Shown: piece by piece, positions 2,606-63,500 of the stretch | Layout of the letters: every line of letters begins with the position of its first letter | How positions within the stretch are numbered: the stretch's first letter is position 1 | From: Branchiostoma floridae | Lineage: Eukaryota > Chordata > Leptocardii > Amphioxiformes > Branchiostomatidae | DNA: 64,000 nucleotides | NCBI RefSeq assembly: GCF_000003815.2 | Contig: NC_049980.1 | Coordinates: 26,725,248-26,789,247 of the forward strand | Direction: 5' to 3' | Position numbers and translations under genes: made by a program | Notes under the pieces: model-generated | The model's input: only the letters and a program-made list of their open reading frames with translations | Told to the model about the DNA's origin: nothing | Databases searched by the model: none

Positions 2606-13600
<10,995 letters not shown>

Positions 13601-15186: not shown

Positions 15187-23736
<8,550 letters not shown>

Positions 23737-27364: not shown

Positions 27365-37869
<10,505 letters not shown>

Positions 37870-41875: not shown

Positions 41876-43882
41876 GCATTTGTGAAACTCACGGCATCGC
41901 CACGACACGGAAAGATGAAGATAAATGCAATCGTCACCATTCTCGTTTTCACTACGAACGGAATATCAGGTGTAGCCATCCCTCGTCAGGAGACCAGATC
42001 GACCTACGAACGCACTAGACTCACGTACGACCGCTGCCAGTACAGACCCTTCTCCAATACGCTTCTGTCGTGTCAGCTTAGTTCCCACAGACCATTTGAA
42101 TTCCATGCCGTATATCCCACCAGTTTCGGCTGTGCCTTCACGGACAGACCGATCAGATCAGCGCAGTTGTTGGTGCCTTCGGACGCCATCGAGGTAGACG
42201 CCGAACGATTTGCGGAACGCACCGACGTTGTGACAGACGTGGAAAGAGCCGAGATGGTCTACAGTACTGAAACAGAGAATCTTCAGGTACGTATTTGTGG
42301 AAAATAATCATATCTGGAACTTGTATTGATAGACTGAAGAAAGTTCGTCCCGGTCGCATTCGACTTGCACGTATACGTATCCGCGCAGAAAGGACCAACC
42401 GCCGTCATGGAGCTAATACAATCTTTTCTGTAACAAACGAAGCCGCTGTTTTTTTTTTGTGTACGACACGTGCTCGACTATCCCAAAGATTTCCTCAGTT
42501 TGCGACTGGGCGTATGACTAATGTGACCGTTCCCTACGTCAGAGCGGGACTGTAAATGGTAATTGCATGAACGTCTTTCTTTGTTATTGTCGCTATACTT
42601 TGTACAATGCGCATTACTACCGAGCAATAGAGTTAACTCATTCATCTATCTGTTTCCTAAATGAAAAAGAATTTGTGAGCTTGTTCCAACTCAGCTATTC
42701 AGACATTCCGAATGAACGAGTTTCTTTTCATGGTTACATTTTCTTCCGCGTCTTTTCATTGACTTTCAATAGACACATCATCTTCATGGTTTGGGAGAGC
42801 ATTTCGGCGCCATGGCGGGTGGAATAACCGGGACACGGGGGAACGAGAGAGAAGTGGGCGGGCCTGAAACGGACGAAGGCCAATTGCAAACGGACGTGAG
42901 TCAAACTGACGAGCGTCAAACAGACGAGAGCCAAACGGACGAGACGAGGGACAACGCCCCCGTATTGAGGTCACGCAACGACCGGACCATCCCAACCTGT
43001 GCACTATGGACACGAATAGACAGCCCTATCTACGCCTACAGCGAAGCGGAGGGAACAGACCAGGTAAGCTTCCTTTCGACAACACTTGTGACCGCGTGGT
43101 CATTGTGTAATGCCGTAGCTGAAGTTTGCACACGGCACGACTATACATGCTGTGTATGCCATGGTCTTGATTTTTTATGGTAGATAGCTTGTCATGTCAG
43201 ATATTCACGGCGTAGGTTTTAGTTCTGTACGTTTTTTTCAGCACACGTTGTTTTGATATAAATAATGTGCTATAGTTCCCACTTATAGGCTTTCCACAGA
43301 GGCTATGTTGATTTGATTATGTGGATGACGTCCTCTGAAAAGCGCACAACTGATGCGAGCGTGCGTGCGAATGGAAAAAAACAAGTTTGCCTCCCATAAG
43401 TTGCCTTCATTATGAAATCTAAGTGGCCAGGAAGTTTGAACAAATGACTGAACACATAGAGTATGTATGATATATAGAACAATAAATTCCTTTCCTTCTT
43501 CGTTGACCTTGGAATTGACTTTGGCATTTCAAGACGTTTTGCGAATTTTTAAAATCTTTTCGGCTACTTCGTAAGATTTAACAGTATGGTTGAAAACGCC
43601 CTAGAATTGACGCACGCCTGGATGCAATCAACTCCAATATAACCACGGCCTAATCGCCATCTGCACTTTCGCTAGGTGGAGCTGTACTTCTACGAAGGGA
43701 ACTACCAGTGGTTTCACCTGTCCAGTTGCCATGGCAGCAGCGGCAGCGCCAACCCCGTGGTGAACTGTGCAGGGCAGTGCCGGCAGGTCAGGCTCCAGCA
43801 CCGCGCCGTGGTGGTGCGGGAGGACCTGACGGCCGAGTGGGACTGGGTCTGGTTGGACGCGGGGTGTACACTATACATTTAG
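41876..43882 (+). CDS. secreted precursor with neurotrophin/Spaetzle-like cysteine-rich C-terminus
   Basis: Three exons, 41876-42286, 42773-43063 and 43676-43882, join in phase 0 with clean GT-AG sites. The ATG at 41915 is chosen because it starts a signal peptide (MKINAIVTILVFTTNGISG); it gives 289 residues. A propeptide of about 170 residues includes a run of (S/R)QTDE repeats, then the minimal furin site RNDR (192-195). The C-terminal part has cysteines at 200, 239, 252, 256 and 285, and ends WDWVWLDAGCTLYI. This parallels the neurotrophin end W-R-F-I-R-I-D-T-A-C. The spacing C-38-C-12-C-3-C-28-C is near NGF (42, 9, 11, 27), but the sixth knot cysteine is replaced by Leu. The propeptide has three cysteines, which is unusual. 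I infer a divergent neurotrophin- or Spaetzle-type ligand; another small cystine-rich family is possible. The acceptor at 41875 shows there is an upstream noncoding exon. Confidence 0.8.
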
Positions 43883-49500: not shown

Positions 49501-50673
49501 GTTGCTGAAAAAGAGTGATGAACGTGACTCGAAACTAGGGAAGTAAAACCCTGGTTGTACTTGTAGAGATCTCCATACCTAGGGGTGGTTTGGACCATAG
49601 GGGTCAAACCAATTACTTAGCTGACCTCCGACCCCAGCCCATAGCAGAGCAGTTGCTCCAGCTTCTCTAGCGAGAAGCCAAATTTTTTCTGAGGTCTCAT
49701 TTTTGAAGATCGCACAATGCCTCCAAGAAAGCCACGCTCTAAAGAAGCACCCAGGTTGTGGTGAGTTGACCAACTTCCACCCCAAGGGAAAGGCGACTCA
49801 CCACTGTGAGGGCCTGGGCCTGGTGGACGTTTCGAACGCCGAGAGCAGCAATTAGGACGATCCAAAAAATGGCACGCGGTTGACTACGAAGACAGTACAT
49901 ACACATACTCCATACATACATACATACATACACTCATAGAGATCTCCATTTGTAGAGATTTTCCTTTAATTTAAATACCGTTTACCTGGATGTCTAACCT
50001 TCATAAACATATGAAGCACATGTAACGTCCTTTGTACTTACGGACACGTCCACAAGTGTTTTCACATTCCTCCGCGGTTTCAAAGTTGTTGTCGTTACCT
50101 CCACAGCCTCCATAGATGAAGTTCTCACACTGCCCGGTTTGGCTGTTGAAGAACACCCGAGGAAAGGCAGCCTTGCAGTTTCCAACCTTCTTGGGTTGCT
50201 GACAGGTGCTGTCCTCATCACGTGTGGCAAACTCAAACGGGAGGTCATCTGTATGGAAGAGAGGAGTTGCATCATTTTGTTAAAATCATTTTTGGGGTAC
50301 CTCAAATTGAGTCCTAGGGCTGGCTGTGTGTGTTAAAACTGATATCTTATTTATCTATCCATTTCTATTTATTGGTTTGGCTGGTTAGAACACACAGCCA
50401 TGGCTGCCCAACTAGCCTATGGCTATTACAAAGGGCTAGCCCTGCTGCTGACAAAAACAGAGACAATACATATGGATTTGGACAGGATACTTATCAATAA
50501 AACTGATATAACATTCCTCATGCACACTTCTACGAAGAAGGAACATGTGGTTAAAAATCATTAGTTCCCCTGCCTCGGATGAAGTTGACCTCAGCTGTAC
50601 AGAGGCCGACAACAGCGACCATGAACCAAAACATTGTTGCTGTTCCGTCTTTCTGGTGCTGTTTTGTCGCCAT
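46579..50673 (-). CDS. secreted protein with two Kunitz domains and a C-terminal DUF4773-like domain
   Basis: Eight exons, 5' to 3': 50574-50673, 50042-50248, 49028-49130, 48518-48645, 48104-48199, 47344-47436, 47011-47115, 46579-46727. They join in phase to 326 residues. The first ATG (50673) is used here; the second (50634) would begin directly with the signal peptide [14 protein letters not shown]. Kunitz 1 has cysteines at 49, 58, 74, 82, 95 and 99 (exact 8-15-7-12-3 spacing) with P1 Lys59. Kunitz 2 has cysteines at 122, 131, 147, 155, 168 and 172 with P1 Arg132, and an intron splits it. Basic P1 residues predict inhibition of trypsin-like serine proteases outside the cell. Residues about 188-305 start [11 protein letters not shown] and include a fold-like [20 protein letters not shown] and FDLGCFKLG, which I match to DUF4773 from memory. 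Intron 1 appears to use a GC donor (GAG/GCAGGG), because no phase-compatible GT exists there. Confidence 0.9.
46731..46910. repeat. tandem duplication of about 97 bp at the last intron of the Kunitz gene
   Basis: TGTGGCGGGAACATAAA, then CCTTTCATTTA, GCCACAACTA and CTTCATGAGGG occur twice in the same order. The first copy includes the acceptor of the final exon, so the second copy carries a duplicate acceptor-like sequence within the intron. Confidence 0.85.
49575..49935. repeat. unassigned block in intron 2 of the Kunitz gene, ending in (CATA)n
   Basis: GC content is higher than in its neighbours. Overlapping minus-strand open frames are present without a domain I recognise, and the block is followed by a short CATA microsatellite (about 49910-49930). 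Most likely a transposon fragment. Confidence 0.35.
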
Positions 50674-52290: not shown

Positions 52291-52561
52291 ATTATTATAT
52301 GAAAAAAAAATTGGTTCTGCAATTTTAAGAGAAAAGCCCCACCCTGCTGGTGCCCACTCTACCTTGTTGGTTTGAAAAAATTTATGATTATGTTACTTCT
52401 TTTGTGTTGCTCACACAGTGGTCATGTACAACACAATCTGTGTTGACCTGAACCAGAAGATCAGAAGAAAGGTGCACAGAATTTCTCCTTTATTATCCAA
52501 CCATAACACACTACCACTGGACTCTACAGCAAATAAAAGCTCCTTGTCTACAGGCATCAGC

Positions 52562-55500
52562 ATGGCCCAGTCTGAGAAAGCTGAAGAGATTTTAGAGAAG
52601 CCCCACCTGACGGAGGAGCAGGCAGGGCAGCTTGTGGAGACACTCTATGGGCTCAAGGTGACGTCTCTGAAGCCGCTCGACAGCTACGACGACTTGAACT
52701 TCTATGTGAAAGTTGATGGCCCCGCCGCATGGGCTCGTGGGTACACACTGAAGGTTATGAATGGCACCGACTCCAAAAATGGGGGTGAGTTTCCCAAGCT
52801 GGTCTTCTACAACATCTGACTTAAGCCAAGGAGAATAAACTACTCCAGTTGGTTAGGTCTTTGGGGAAATGTACAGCATTTTCTTCTATCTTGGTCCAAG
52901 ATTTTCACACGTCTTCAAATATTGGTGACCCAGAAAAATGCATACCCATCTTTACATTCTTTTCAATCACTGCCACTGGTACNNNNNNNNNNNNNNNNNN
53001 NNNNNNNNNNNNNNNNNNNNNNNNNNNNNNNNNNNNNNNNNNNNNNNNNNNNNNNNNNNNNNNNNNNNNNNNNNNNNNNNNNNNNNNNNNNNNNNNNNNN
53101 NNNNNNNNNNNNNNNNNNNNNNNNNNNNNNNNNNNNNNNNNNNNNNNNNNNNNNNNNNNNNNNNNNNNNNNNNNNNNNNNNNNNNNNNNNNNNNNNNNNN
53201 NNNNNNNNNNNNNNNNNNNNNNNNNNNNNNNNNNNNNNNNNNNNNNNNNNNNNNNNNNNNNNNNNNNNNNNNNNNNNNNNNNNNNNNNNNNNNNNNNNNN
53301 NNNNNNNNNNNNNNNNNNNNNNNNNNNNNNNNNNNNNNNNNNNNNNNNNNNNNNNNNNNNNNNNNNNNNNNNNNNNNNNNNNNNNNNNNNNNNNNNNNNN
53401 NNNNNNNNNNNNNNNNNNNNNNNNNNNNNNNNNNNNNNNNNNNNNNNNNNNNNNNNNNNNNNNNNNNNNNNNNNNNNNNNNNNNNNNNNNNNNNNNNNNN
53501 NNNNNNNNNNNNNNNNNNNNNNNNNNNNNNNNNNNNNNNNNNNNNNNNNNNNNNNNNNNNNNNNNNNNNNNNNNNNNNNNNNNNNNNNNNNNNNNNNNNN
53601 NNNNNNNNNNNNNNNNNNNNNNNNNNNNNNNNNNNNNNNNNNNNNNNNNNNNNNNNNNNNNNNNNNNNNNNNNNNNNNNNNNNNNNNNCAAGCCGTTTTG
53701 GCGTTAAATTTTTAGGGGAAATCAAAAATTGGTCCCTGACCCTGAACCTTTTTTTTCAGGCCCTTGGACTGACAAAGGGGACTTTCATATGAGGAAGGAT
53801 TGCTTTGTTTCTCTGGCCCTTGTGATAAAGGTTAGCACTTTCTCACAACATTGTTTCGCCTCCTGACCATACCTGGCCCGGGCCCGGATTCCCATAATGT
53901 TCCTGTCACTAAACGCCTGGGCCTAGGATGCTGGTGCTTTTCTAGCCAAAATACATGAGGCCTGAAGGTAAGTACTGGGAGCTTCACCTAATGCAATGTG
54001 ATGCAATGCTGCTGTAAAGTTCTGAGTTTTGATGCTGCTATAGTCTGAGTGGCATTGGTGCAAACAGTGCAGCATTGGACCTATGGTGCCTTTCCTTTAT
54101 CTTGGTAATTATGTGTATGCTCCACATTAAGATTGTGTGCGCAGTCATTTGTGTGCCAGGGCCGATGTAAAACGGTTGTGTTTCTGTTAACCCAACGACC
54201 CTAGTGAAAGCCAGCCCATCCCAACCTTTTTCTTGGGTCTGAGCCAATTAAGCTCAATATGTTGAATATTATTGCCTGTATCATTACTGGCTGCTTTTAT
54301 GCCGAGGACCTGAAATGGCACACCATGCAAATTAATTCTACTTTACATTGCAATTAGCCTGGGTACCATCCTATTTCTACCGGGGCTCCTTACACTCACT
54401 TCCTTTTTTAGGGAAGTGAGTGTAAGGAGCCCTGGTAGAAATAGGATGGTACCCAGGCTACATTACAATGCCAGTTTGCCTTTAATATTTCTTGATTGTT
54501 TCCACCAGGATTTTTCTCACCCAGCCTTGCACAGACCAGAGTTTGTATGGAGCCTGAAATGTCTGCCCAGCCTTGAGAACTACCTACACTGTCTGAAGGA
54601 GGAACGTCACAAGGACATAAACAGGGAAATCATTCTAGCCTTCAGAGAAAAAGTGTTATCCCGTATGGATGACCTTCCACACGGTAAGAAGGGAAGGAAG
54701 TGTTATTTGTTATGGTAATGCAGGAGTACTAAAATCACTCAAATGCCAGGGGTCTTATTGTGATCCAAATCATGTGCTACTGCTTTTTAGAATTTAAAGG
54801 AAGATCTTGCTCCACACCCAGGGACAACGGATGATGATGATATATAGAATGCATTAGTCTTTAAGGGAGAGCAACTCTGCCGCTCAACCTACACTCTAGA
54901 GGCAGATTCCGGGCTGTCCTTGCTTTAACTGACCTGCATGCAGTTGAACATTTGAAAGGGTTGCAATCGTAAGGGACGTTAATTTTACCGGCAGTTGTAT
55001 ATGTTGTTCACTTTTCACTGTCAAAAGGACACGATGGTCATACAATGAAGTCTGTTATACAGTAGATGTTGTTTGTATTTCATGTACATCATGAGCCATA
55101 GAATATTAGTTCTATCTATTTTTGATTTGAGAGTATAAAAGAGGAAAAAAATAAAACCTTATCATTGAATCCAGGACCTTTTAACACCAATTCAACAACC
55201 TTAAACCATGCCATTGTAAGCAGTTATGACATTAATACATAACTGTCATCTCTTGTGACCATATGATATACATGTATATATATATATCTGTAGGAGTGAT
55301 GCATGGAGATTTCAATGACCTGAATGTCCTGGTGGAAGAGGACCCTGTCACCCCCAGTGAGTACAGGGTCTGTGGGCTGCTGGACTACGGTGATGCCATC
55401 GTGAACCCCTATGTGTTTGACCTTGCCATCGCGCTGATGTACTTCATGTCAGTAGTAAAGGATCCGATCACATTTGGAGGACATCTTGTAGCAGGTTAGT

Positions 55501-59868: not shown

Positions 59869-61926
59869 AAGGGAAAACTCCGTCGCTGAGGCATTTCCGT
59901 GTCAAGAGGACAATGTCATGTGCCCTTACATTTGTGCCAAATTCAAACTCAATCCATAAACAATTAACCTGATTATGATACAAATGGCATTACCGGTCCT
60001 TTTTTTGACTCACGTTTTGTATCAGCATCAACACTAGAAAATGAATTCTTCGACAAAATGGTACACCTTCATCCAGGACTGCCCTCAAGCACAGTGTTGT
60101 AGAGCAGCCATTGCAGACGAACTGGTGTTTGAAAACAAGGCAAGGCTATCCAAGACAGTAGGAGGAAGGCGGTCAGAAGAAGTACAGCTACCGGAGGACA
60201 GCTATAGTACAGCTGCGGGAGCCAACCACAAGTAGACAACATCGCGATCGGGAGACCGGGAGACGAACGGAAGCAATTTAATCAATTTGGCTCAAAACAG
60301 TGATACAGAAAAAAATGATGCTCAGAAGAACACGGAACTGAGAACTGACCAACAGAAGAGTTTTAGCAGGTCTAGATAATAAAAGACGTTCGCATAGTTT
60401 GTAGAAGGTATTAACAATGCATGTAATATAGAATGTAATTAATGATAGGAAAAATGCCAGTCACAGAAACTGAGAAAAGAAAACGAAAAAAAAAATGTTT
60501 ACTTCAGTACCACTAAGAAGTGTGTCTGTGTTGACAGGTTCAGTGTAGCATTAGGACCGTTTTATGGTGTTAAGTACCAAGGTCAGGTGTGTTTGTGTTG
60601 GGTCTGACAGATGTGGCGTGCAGAGTGTGAGAGTAAAATGTGTAAAGTACCAAAGACATGTGGCTTCCTTGTTTCTTTCTGTGTATTAAAAGTACTAATA
60701 AAAAAAAACAGGCAATGAAAGAGTTTTGTCAAGTTAAGTGTAAAGTATATTTCCTACCACATCATATTTAAGTTCATGGATCAAAAGTGACGCTTAGCAA
60801 TGTTTTCTAAAACTGCAAGCATCTATTTCAAAGAAGCATCAACCGAAAAGCTTAATATTCTCATGGACCAAAAGCGTCACCAGAAAATGTTAGCAACTAG
60901 CAATTTTGTAGCACCTAGCGATGCCGATGGAACGCCATGACTTCCAATGCTTGGAAAAACGCCCGACCGGGACTGTGAGATCGCTTTTCATCCATATACG
61001 ACTGTAACGTCTTTGGTTGGTTCTACACCAAGCTGTCCCTTCCGCTTTATGGTAGGGTTGTACACCCACTCGTGGATTTCCTCTCTGACTCGTCGATGGC
61101 CTCTTCTGCTATCCGAAGATTTCGTGATTTACATGATTTTTCCATGTCAGATACTGAAATACATTCCTCAGTACGCAGTGATTGTGTTTTCGTTACCTTT
61201 GTTACCTTTGGATACTAATTAAGAACTTTCAAATGGCTTAGCTAAATGTCAAAATTTCAACATTTTGGCTTTGAAGAATATGCCTTCTTAAGTTTGCTGT
61301 CCTTGCTAACATTGCTAGATCTTGAGAAATGGTGAAGATTGTAGATGTCATGGCATTTGATTGATAGTCTGTCCAAATTTTCGTACACCAGATTGAATGT
61401 AGACCAGATGAACAAGTTGTCTGCGATACCGAATGGCACATAATTGAGATCGAGTCCCGAAAGATAAGACGAGTTGAAATACTCTTAGTCTATGTTTTAG
61501 TTTAAATCTGTATCGCCATGTGGTTAGATTAACGGAACGTCTTCCATATTTCCAGACATTTCCATACTGGGTTTAGTCAACCGTGTCATTTGCAAGCCCA
61601 TTGTAATAGGCAATATCAGAAGCACAATGACAAGATATATAAATGTACAAAATAAGTAGACGACCGACAATGGTAGAATTATTTGACCCTCGGCGAAATA
61701 GAAGTAAAGCTTTCCATTTAGGCATTATCTAAGAATGCGTTATGAAGTGAGTTTGATTTGAAGAGTTTATCACACGTACCGGTGGTGAAACGGCCAGTAA
61801 CGCCAGCATTTTTGTGTGCACTGTTTATTGTGGTATATCTCTTTCGGGTTAGTGTTGACAGCTACACGGCCTGGGGAAGCTGAATTCAACTACTCAGAGT
61901 GATCGATATAACAGCAGGAATCAGAC
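59869..61926. other. spacer between SPR and HYKK copy 2
   Basis: It holds the SPR 3' UTR and possible polyadenylation signals (AATAAA-like text near 60690), then AT-rich sequence. Open frames at 60041-60235 and 60947-61222 show no domain or splice logic and are not called as genes. Confidence 0.5.
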
Positions 61927-63500
61927 ATGGAGCAAACGGACAGCACAGGAGAGATTGTTGAGAAACCGAGTTTAACAGAGGAACAAGCAACTCGCCTTGC
62001 AGAACGACTTTACGGGTTTAAAGTTGAAACTTTGAGGCCACTGGACAGTTATGACGACCTGAACTTCCATGTCATAGTTGACGGCGACACTTCTTCTCCC
62101 CATGGCTACACACTGAAGGTTACTAACGGTACTGACTCACAACATGAAGGTTGGGTTTTATGGATTTTGTTTCAGATGTGGAGATAAATCGAGTTATGCC
62201 TTCGAACGTTGGAGCTATTAGCCCTACTCTCCAAGCAGAGGGCTTTCTATTTTGTATTGTATCTTGCTGTGGCAAAACCTAACACAGCAAGTTACAATAC
62301 AAAATAAGAAGTCCAATAAAAACGACTAAAGAAAATAAAACTTAAAAAACAACAACAGCCGGAGCCTAACCTCTGCTTGGGGAGTAATTAGCCCCAGGTA
62401 GTAGATGAAGAACTTCGTGTAATTCGTGTTGTAAGTCTAGATCTTGACGTATCTCCCATACATAGCGTTTGTGATTACCATATTGACCGATAGTGGTATT
62501 AGTGACAGATAGTTCTATAGACATGCATTACATAATACGTATACAGCCAGAAGAATACTTGTATAAAGTACAAATAGCGCATGTCATACTATCTTTCAAC
62601 AGCTCTTATCGCCCGGATCTAGCCGTAGAAGAATACTGATAGCCAATGATTACTTCATCGTCCTCCCTGTAATTTCAAATTTCAGATGTGTTCGAGGCTC
62701 AGAACCAGATGATGACGTTCCTAGCAGACAAGGGGTTCCCGGTACCTCAAGCAGTTCCTAACCTTTGGGGTCACGTCATGACTCTGGAGAATCTGCGGAG
62801 GAGCGACAACGGTAAATGTAACATTCATGTTATTGTATATAGAGACAGGTCTTTGACTTCAAATCACGCGAGCTTGTGGTCTGTTTCCAAAACGCACGTT
62901 ACACCTAAACTGCCCCACTATAGTTTCTGTCTTTGCTGTAACGTTACATGTTTCCCGATAAACATACAGGTGGTTGTTCTGAAAACCTAGTGCGTCTTTT
63001 GACATACCTACCCGGGACTGTGTACCACGATGTTCCAATGACGGTTGCGCTGGCTTACGAAGCTGGAGTGTTTCTGGCAAAAGTACAAGAAGCACTGAAG
63101 GTAGGTGACTGATATGTTATCTTTTTACCACGGGCTTTTGGCATGACACTTCACACAATTCACACAATGGGGCATAAATAATGACTTTTTATGAACACTA
63201 TCTGTCACGATGAATAGTGTGATGTTGGGAAGTGGAACCTAACTCTAGAGAGACAGAGAAAGAGACAGAGAGAGTGGGATGTTTGGCATGCAGCGATAAC
63301 TAAACACTACTTACCCCGTTTGTAGGATTTCTCTCACCCATCACTACACCGGCCTAACTATGCATGGAGCCTGGCAGGTGTCGCCAGCCTAGAGAAATAC
63401 ACGCATTGTCTTCATGATGACCGCGCTAAGGAAATCATTACCAAGATTGTGCAGACCTTTGCGAAGAAAGTGTTGCCTCGCATGGATGAGCTTCCACAAG
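61927..63500 (+). CDS. HYKK: hydroxylysine kinase copy 2 (5' part; continues past the window)
   Basis: Same family and role as copy 1. Exons 61927-62149 (EEQATRLAERLYGFKVETLR, then PLDSYDDLNFHV), 62686-62811 (FEAQNQMMTFLADKGFPVPQ), 62970-63100 (ENLVRLLTYLPG, then AYEAGVFLAKVQEALK) and 63326-63500 (DFSHPSLHRPNYAWSLAGVA). Phases are 1, 1, 0 and 1, matching copy 1 where both are visible. The last donor is GTCAGT at 63501. The exon with the HGD catalytic loop lies beyond the right edge, so activity cannot be judged. The start ATG aligns with copy 1 and with human HYKK. Intron 1 carries a MITE. The two copies are clearly diverged, so the duplication is not recent. Confidence 0.94.
62214..62393. 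mobile_element. MITE in intron 1 of HYKK copy 2
   Basis: GCTATTAGCCCTACTCTCCA runs on into AGCAGAGG at the left, and CCTCTGCTTGGGGAGTAATT then AGC is its inverted partner at the right. An inner hairpin pairs TATTTTGTATTGTA with TACAATACAAAATA. About 180 bp, noncoding. Confidence 0.87.

Follow-up and report, generated by a model that had tools for sequence, protein, structure and literature searches.

A predicted lancelet pro-ligand of the neurotrophin family with an incomplete cystine knot

In NGF, the knot cysteines form the disulfide pairs C1-C4, C2-C5 and C3-C6. Residues that separate the neurotrophins (NGF family, PF00243; NGF, NT-3, BDNF and NT-4) from Spaetzle and the Drosophila neurotrophins (PF16077) are described in PMC2772990. 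According to this paper, neurotrophins have a Trp before C5, an Ile or Val three residues on, a Gln before C2 and no Pro at alignment site 13, whereas in Spaetzle site 133 is aromatic and site 130 is not Trp. The same paper states that the canonical vertebrate and sea urchin neurotrophin precursor is contained in one coding exon. Mention of further amphioxus neurotrophin genes was not found in the titles and abstract openings of the open-licence papers searched.

The gene described here lies on the forward strand of a 64,000-nucleotide stretch of the Branchiostoma floridae genome (C2:26725248-26789247), hereafter called the window. It has three coding exons that specify a protein of 289 amino acids (870 coding bases including the stop codon), and the frame is open across all three. 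Both introns are in phase 0 and have canonical GT-AG boundaries. The 5ˊ part of the first exon (41876-41914), read from the sequence as a probable 5ˊ UTR, is preceded by the acceptor 'tttcag' and is open in frame with the ATG. Coding exon 1 (41915-42286; residues 1-124) carries the start codon, a putative signal peptide judged by eye to span approximately residues 1-19, and propeptide sequence. Intron 1 (42287-42772) is followed by coding exon 2 (42773-43063; residues 125-221), which contains the remaining propeptide, the cleavage site and the first knot cysteine (C1, C200). Intron 2 (43064-43675) falls within the knot domain directly before V-E-L, and coding exon 3 (43676-43882) supplies C2 (C239), C3 (C252), C4 (C256) and a WDWVWLDAGC end with C5 (C285), closing with a TAG codon at 43880-43882. 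A 15-nt tandem repeat of 3.9 copies (42887-42944) encodes acidic QTDE-type units in frame. Downstream of this repeat, the sequence RNDR at residues 192-195 (42974-42985) is a minimal furin-type R-x-x-R site; a further Arg occupies P6. Cleavage at this site would leave a predicted mature chain of 94 amino acids (residues 196-289). A first-pass annotation of this DNA had proposed three in-phase exons, an (S/R)QTDE propeptide repeat and an RNDR furin-type site, and all of these are present.

The window protein resembles neurotrophins in having C1-C5, a Gln before C2, a Trp-x-x-Val before C5 and a predicted pro-protein layout with an R-x-x-R site. Unlike neurotrophins, it is acidic, has Leu in place of C6 and has a C3-C4 loop of three rather than 11 residues. 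Further differences are the propeptide cysteines, the introns that interrupt the precursor, one of them within the knot domain, and the lack of a Pfam match for the protein on its own. Similarities to Spaetzle and the Drosophila neurotrophins include an intron-rich gene, a Pro nine residues after C1 (C1+9) and, by expectation, the same superfamily fold. However, the aromatic residue of Spaetzle is absent from the window protein, the Trp of neurotrophins is present, and sequence comparison gives no significant match to Spaetzle.

Other features of the window include several exon copies for alpha-amylase on the reverse strand between 7097 and 34333 (for example 8184-8483, 20001-20357 and 33980-34333), suggesting a tandem cluster; among three of these exons that were scanned, one scored above the Pfam cut-off and two just below. 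A Kunitz/BPTI domain exon (71.2 bits) is found at 50004-50279 on the reverse strand. Positions 1-919 are occupied by a 78-bp tandem repeat of 11.3 copies with long open frames of repeated ITWPD-type units. Two similar exons on the forward strand, at 52388-52816 and 61912-62184, share the pattern LTEEQA..L...LYG.KV..L.PLDSYDDLNF.V.VDG, suggesting a related gene pair, and neither has a Pfam match above the cut-off.

The coding potential of the three exons was assessed with a codon score trained on only 653 codons, for which the background consisted of the 2229 open draws among 200000 random 291-nt draws from the window, with N-containing draws dropped. Scores as high as those of exons 2 and 3 were reached by 4.9% and 4.7% of these open draws, respectively. 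Exon 1 was matched by 44% of them and thus gains no support from this measure; it is accepted because of propeptide homology to related genes, which becomes visible only once those relatives are known. The GC3 value of exon 3 is 0.86, compared with a GC content of 0.41 for the intron. The DNA of exon 3 has a single match in the 513-Mb assembly. As judged from its homology, the three-exon gene is a real gene.

No credible match was obtained when the window protein alone was compared with Pfam (NGF or Spaetzle), NCBIfam and the PDB (phmmer). Unrelated families appeared only below threshold (TMEM132_C, YciZ, PRK13658.1, carboxypeptidase-like 5 and Tti1), and these were taken as chance.

Searches of the genome yielded four related genes, which bring the number known here to five. 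One is a canonical neurotrophin (C19; C19:4385589-4385915), and three are divergent relatives that we label C13 (9717598), C2b (C2:11630494) and C2c (C2:11635459). A genome search with PF00243 gave 81.2 bits for C19, 31.8 bits for C13 and 23 bits for C2b, and a search with PF16077 returned C13:9717598 weakly (E 0.07). A second PF16077 match, C11:17770361 (E 5.97), was dropped as chance upon inspection by eye, since its frames contain nothing neurotrophin-like. A scan of the 100 kb surrounding C2b, together with a 164-kb region that contains the window, located C2c 5 kb downstream of C2b. Scores on the Pfam NGF model are 30.9-31.8 bits for C13 and 29.3 bits for C2c, both above the cut-off of 27, and 21.8-24.5 bits for C2b, which is below it. 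Whole-genome protein searches (E up to 10) with the window protein, a 203-residue piece of C2b and the last exon of C2c gave 4, 4 and 3 rows, with 3, 1 and 1 of these being self matches, and the non-self rows comprised only C2b, C13 and C2c. The window protein reaches C2b only at E 4.6 genome-wide, and neither the C2b nor the C2c query reached the window gene within the E limit of 10. A search for relatives on viral contigs gave 17 pattern matches, none of which was confirmed.

C19 reads EYTFIAINTSCNC, with a Tyr at the site where the amphioxus neurotrophin is reported to have Tyr in PMC2772990. By this Tyr, which also fits a lancelet genome, C19 is taken to be Bf-NT of PMC2586362 and PMC2772990. 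The C19 frame (1108-2280 on the reverse strand, in the local numbering of its piece) runs more than 100 residues beyond the knot into a very Arg/Lys-rich tail. C19 comes from the same genome and domain family as the window gene, but differs from it in having six cysteines, an 11-residue C3-C4 loop, an uninterrupted frame from propeptide to domain and the Arg-rich tail. C2b and C2c form a head-to-tail pair of neurotrophin-group genes. C2b carries its propeptide block and knot domain in a single frame, and C2c has an intron-split knot domain and an 8-residue C3-C4 loop. For C13, no signal-peptide exon was found by a simple rule within 8.6 kb upstream. The three divergent relatives resemble the window gene in a propeptide block that contains two paired-off cysteine positions, in the C-x-G-x-C loop (C13 and C2b) and in the knot-domain intron (C2c), and they differ from it in retaining six knot cysteines and in lacking a cysteine at the position of C73. 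They are mutually close, at 51-54% identity (for the last exon of C2c), and the window domain is 25-27% identical to them and 18% identical to C19.

Comparison with these paralogues reveals a relationship that is hardly visible directly. The window domain aligned to mouse NGF has a Smith-Waterman score of 36 (z ~2), which is reached by 235 of 5000 full shuffles and by 197 of 5000 shuffles with the cysteines held fixed. Against C13, the mature domain scores 79 (z 12.9), and C13 against mouse NGF has a z value of 12.7, with none of 5000 shuffles reaching the score in either comparison. The window domain also matches C2b (z 8.5; 0 of 3000 shuffles) and, to a lesser extent, C19 (z 3.3; 35 of 3000). 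A profile built from C13, C2b and C2c, with the window sequence left out, gives the window domain 27.7 bits, whereas the best among 5000 Cys-fixed shuffles is 9.6 bits. With a profile of canonical members only (C19 and NGF), the domain scores 5.0 bits, a value that 7 of 2000 shuffles attain, and this weak score indicates that the link between the window domain and the neurotrophins runs via the paralogues.

Profiles that include the window sequence lead to the same family. All 16 PDB matches of a profile from the window domain and C13 are neurotrophins (best E 0.0015). A five-gene amphioxus profile matches neurotrophins in 18 of 19 cases (best E 6.6e-14), aided by its canonical C19 row; the remaining row is a DNA-binding protein at E 1.1. 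The CAGQC (C-x-G-x-C) sequence raised the question of an IL-17- or TGF-beta-type knot; the PDB profiles match neurotrophins instead. Moreover, the knot intron of C2c, for which splice sites were picked by eye, lies at the same place and in the same phase 0 as that of the window gene (...RKNEE / VELWVG compared with ...EGTDQ / VELYFY); in C13 and C2b, a single frame continues across the site. By these comparisons, the domain is homologous to the neurotrophin family through its paralogues, not directly.

The propeptide provides a second region of similarity. The block at residues 41-73 (42035-42133) contains the pair C41-x11-C53, which is common to C13, C2b and C2c, where the spacing is x10. In exon 1 of the window gene, the block reads C-x11-C-x-L followed by FG. 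The relatives show C-x10-C-x-L in all three cases, with FG again present in C2b and C2c. Pairwise tests of the propeptide are weak (z 0.2 against C13; z 2.5 against C2b, with 77 of 3000 shuffles reaching the score). The window score was reached by 5 of 5000 shuffles with a two-row profile and by 1 of 5000 with a three-row profile, although with the latter an unrelated frame ranked level with that of the window (E 0.13 and 0.14) in a set of 9302 segments. When the three-row block was made longer, the window sequence scored 17.2 bits and none of 10000 Cys-fixed shuffles reached it, a figure that is somewhat flattering because the block was lengthened between tests. With the longer block, the window frame, at E 0.0026 among 9302 six-frame segments, ranks first of those that did not enter the profile, and the next is at E 0.23. 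The three propeptide cysteines had been described as unlike known neurotrophins. Two of them are not peculiar to this gene and are common to the group of relatives. C73, which directly follows FG, is found in the window protein only; the same place is occupied by Glu in C2b, Leu in C2c and a gap in C13.

In total, the window protein has eight cysteines (positions 41, 53, 73, 200, 239, 252, 256 and 285). Its mature part retains C1-C5 of the six knot cysteines with the spacing 38-12-3-28 and has a Leu codon (Leu287; 43871-43873) at the place of C6, precisely as the first-pass annotation had read this region. The C-terminal C-x-C is kept in all four relatives, being C-S-C in C13, C2b and C2c and C-N-C in C19, each of which retains six knot cysteines, whereas the window protein has C-T-L there. 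A C-x-C after the C5 codon is absent from both other reading frames of the window gene. The mature chain has a pI of 4.7, compared with 7.8-8.6 in the other four amphioxus genes. With C6 lost, C252 would lack its partner and the knot ring would be open. The earlier suggestion of a dimer bond through an unpaired cysteine is a guess. From cysteine parity, we infer that C252 might pair with C73 or link two subunits.

With the sites of PMC2772990 placed on the window protein through our own alignment to NGF, Trp276, Val279 and Gln232 are of the neurotrophin type. Pro209, at C1+9, has the spacing seen in Drosophila Spaetzle; it occurs also in C2b and C2c, not in C13. The score of the window domain against Drosophila Spaetzle (z 0.9) is reached by 564 of 3000 shuffles. 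On Pfam Spaetzle (PF16077), the relatives score 20-24 bits, below the cut-off of 27 bits, and the window protein is unmatched. Spaetzle chains are absent from the 16 and 19 PDB matches of the two profiles. By these sites and scores the domain is neurotrophin-type rather than Spaetzle-type, one Pro aside. Of the family assignments proposed from the first reading, the description as Spaetzle-like is accordingly given up on most points, whereas that as a divergent neurotrophin relative is borne out. The proposal of a separate ligand branch also gains support, as the three paralogues share the propeptide block and two of the three share the C3-x3-C4 loop.

Structure prediction and phylogeny contribute less. 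An AlphaFold2 model from two rows was uninformative (pLDDT 36.4), and one from five rows (pLDDT 44.5, pTM 0.30) has low-confidence strands at 28-35, 38-45, 64-76 and 82-95 that form two hairpins. When this low-confidence model was submitted to Foldseek, the top eight of 40 positions went to neurotrophin entries, with a best E of 0.38 and no entry significant; Spaetzle was at rank 17, and von Willebrand factor and a TGF-beta complex were lower. This ranking gives at most weak support to a predicted neurotrophin fold. In a seven-row tree, C19 and NGF are joined (98/98) apart from the remaining rows, C2c pairs with Spaetzle (95/97), whose row is extremely long, and the order of the window gene, C2b and C13 is left unresolved. 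The placement of the window gene is unsure because of its branch length of 4.28. The four divergent genes are not one clade in this tree; what probably unites them in one group is instead the propeptide block, together with the loop, the intron and their pairwise similarity.

The explanation that we favour, and regard as likely, is that the window gene belongs to a lancelet group of the neurotrophin family, evolves fast and encodes a pro-ligand with an incomplete, two-disulfide knot. The very long branch, the loss of a structurally essential cysteine, the acidic pI relative to the other amphioxus genes and the background-level codon score of exon 1 could also reflect a decaying duplicate, in which a neurotrophin-group gene under relaxed selection is en route to becoming a pseudogene. 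However, all 870 coding bases remain open in three exons with intact splice sites, C1-C5, the Gln, the Trp and the propeptide cysteine pair are retained, and the GC3 of exon 3 contrasts with the GC content of the intron, so that decay appears unlikely. An incomplete model might also account for the missing cysteine, if the last exon is in reality spliced to an undetected exon encoding C6, or the assembly might contain an error there. Although a GTAC overlaps the C5 codon, C13, C2b, C2c and C19 all run through C-x-C to the stop in one uninterrupted frame, no alternative frame of the window gene offers C-x-C after C5, and the exon matches the genome only once. We therefore consider a hidden C6 quite improbable.

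Still less probable is that the gene encodes a Spaetzle-type Toll ligand, a surviving deuterostome Spaetzle. The intron-rich precursor, the Pro shared by the window gene, C2b and C2c with Drosophila Spaetzle, the scores of the relatives on Pfam Spaetzle and the Foldseek rank of a Spaetzle entry are consistent with such an origin, as is the placement of C2c next to Spaetzle in the seven-row tree, albeit on very long branches. These PF16077 scores are nevertheless below the cut-off, whereas C13 and C2c pass that of NGF; the window domain hardly resembles Drosophila Spaetzle in direct comparison, Spaetzle is missing from the PDB profile matches, and a Trp is present with Val in place of an aromatic residue at the sites given in PMC2772990. 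Finally, comparable open frames are not rare in the window, as the 2229 open random draws attest, and the protein has no Pfam match, as might be found if chance reading frames had been mistaken for a gene. The shuffle results for the knot domain (0 of 5000) and propeptide (0 of 10000), together with the shared intron position, leave this explanation a negligible probability, and for exon 3 it is ruled out by homology.

In the favoured model of a divergent neurotrophin-family pro-ligand, the window protein would be secreted as a pro-protein and cut after RNDR195. The acidic mature chain would keep the bonds C1-C4 (C200-C256) and C2-C5 (C239-C285), and because C252 (C3) would be left without a partner, a closed cystine-knot ring should be impossible within one chain. 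This orphan C252 could be free, could join two subunits or could tie the propeptide to the mature chain, given a total of eight cysteines that includes the extra C73. The product is probably a dimeric extracellular ligand, for which the putative receptor might be Trk, p75, a Toll-like receptor or another protein.

More speculatively, and with some doubt on our part, lancelets may possess a second multi-gene neurotrophin branch, marked by a propeptide module of its own and in some of its genes by a knot-domain intron. One member would have given up the C3-C6 bond and re-used C252 to bond either with C73, creating a covalently held latent ligand, or with a second subunit. If C252 is indeed re-used, this protein would be a ligand of the neurotrophin family able to function with no cystine knot. 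The window gene also provides a natural test case for whether the third knot disulfide is dispensable to a ligand of the neurotrophin type.
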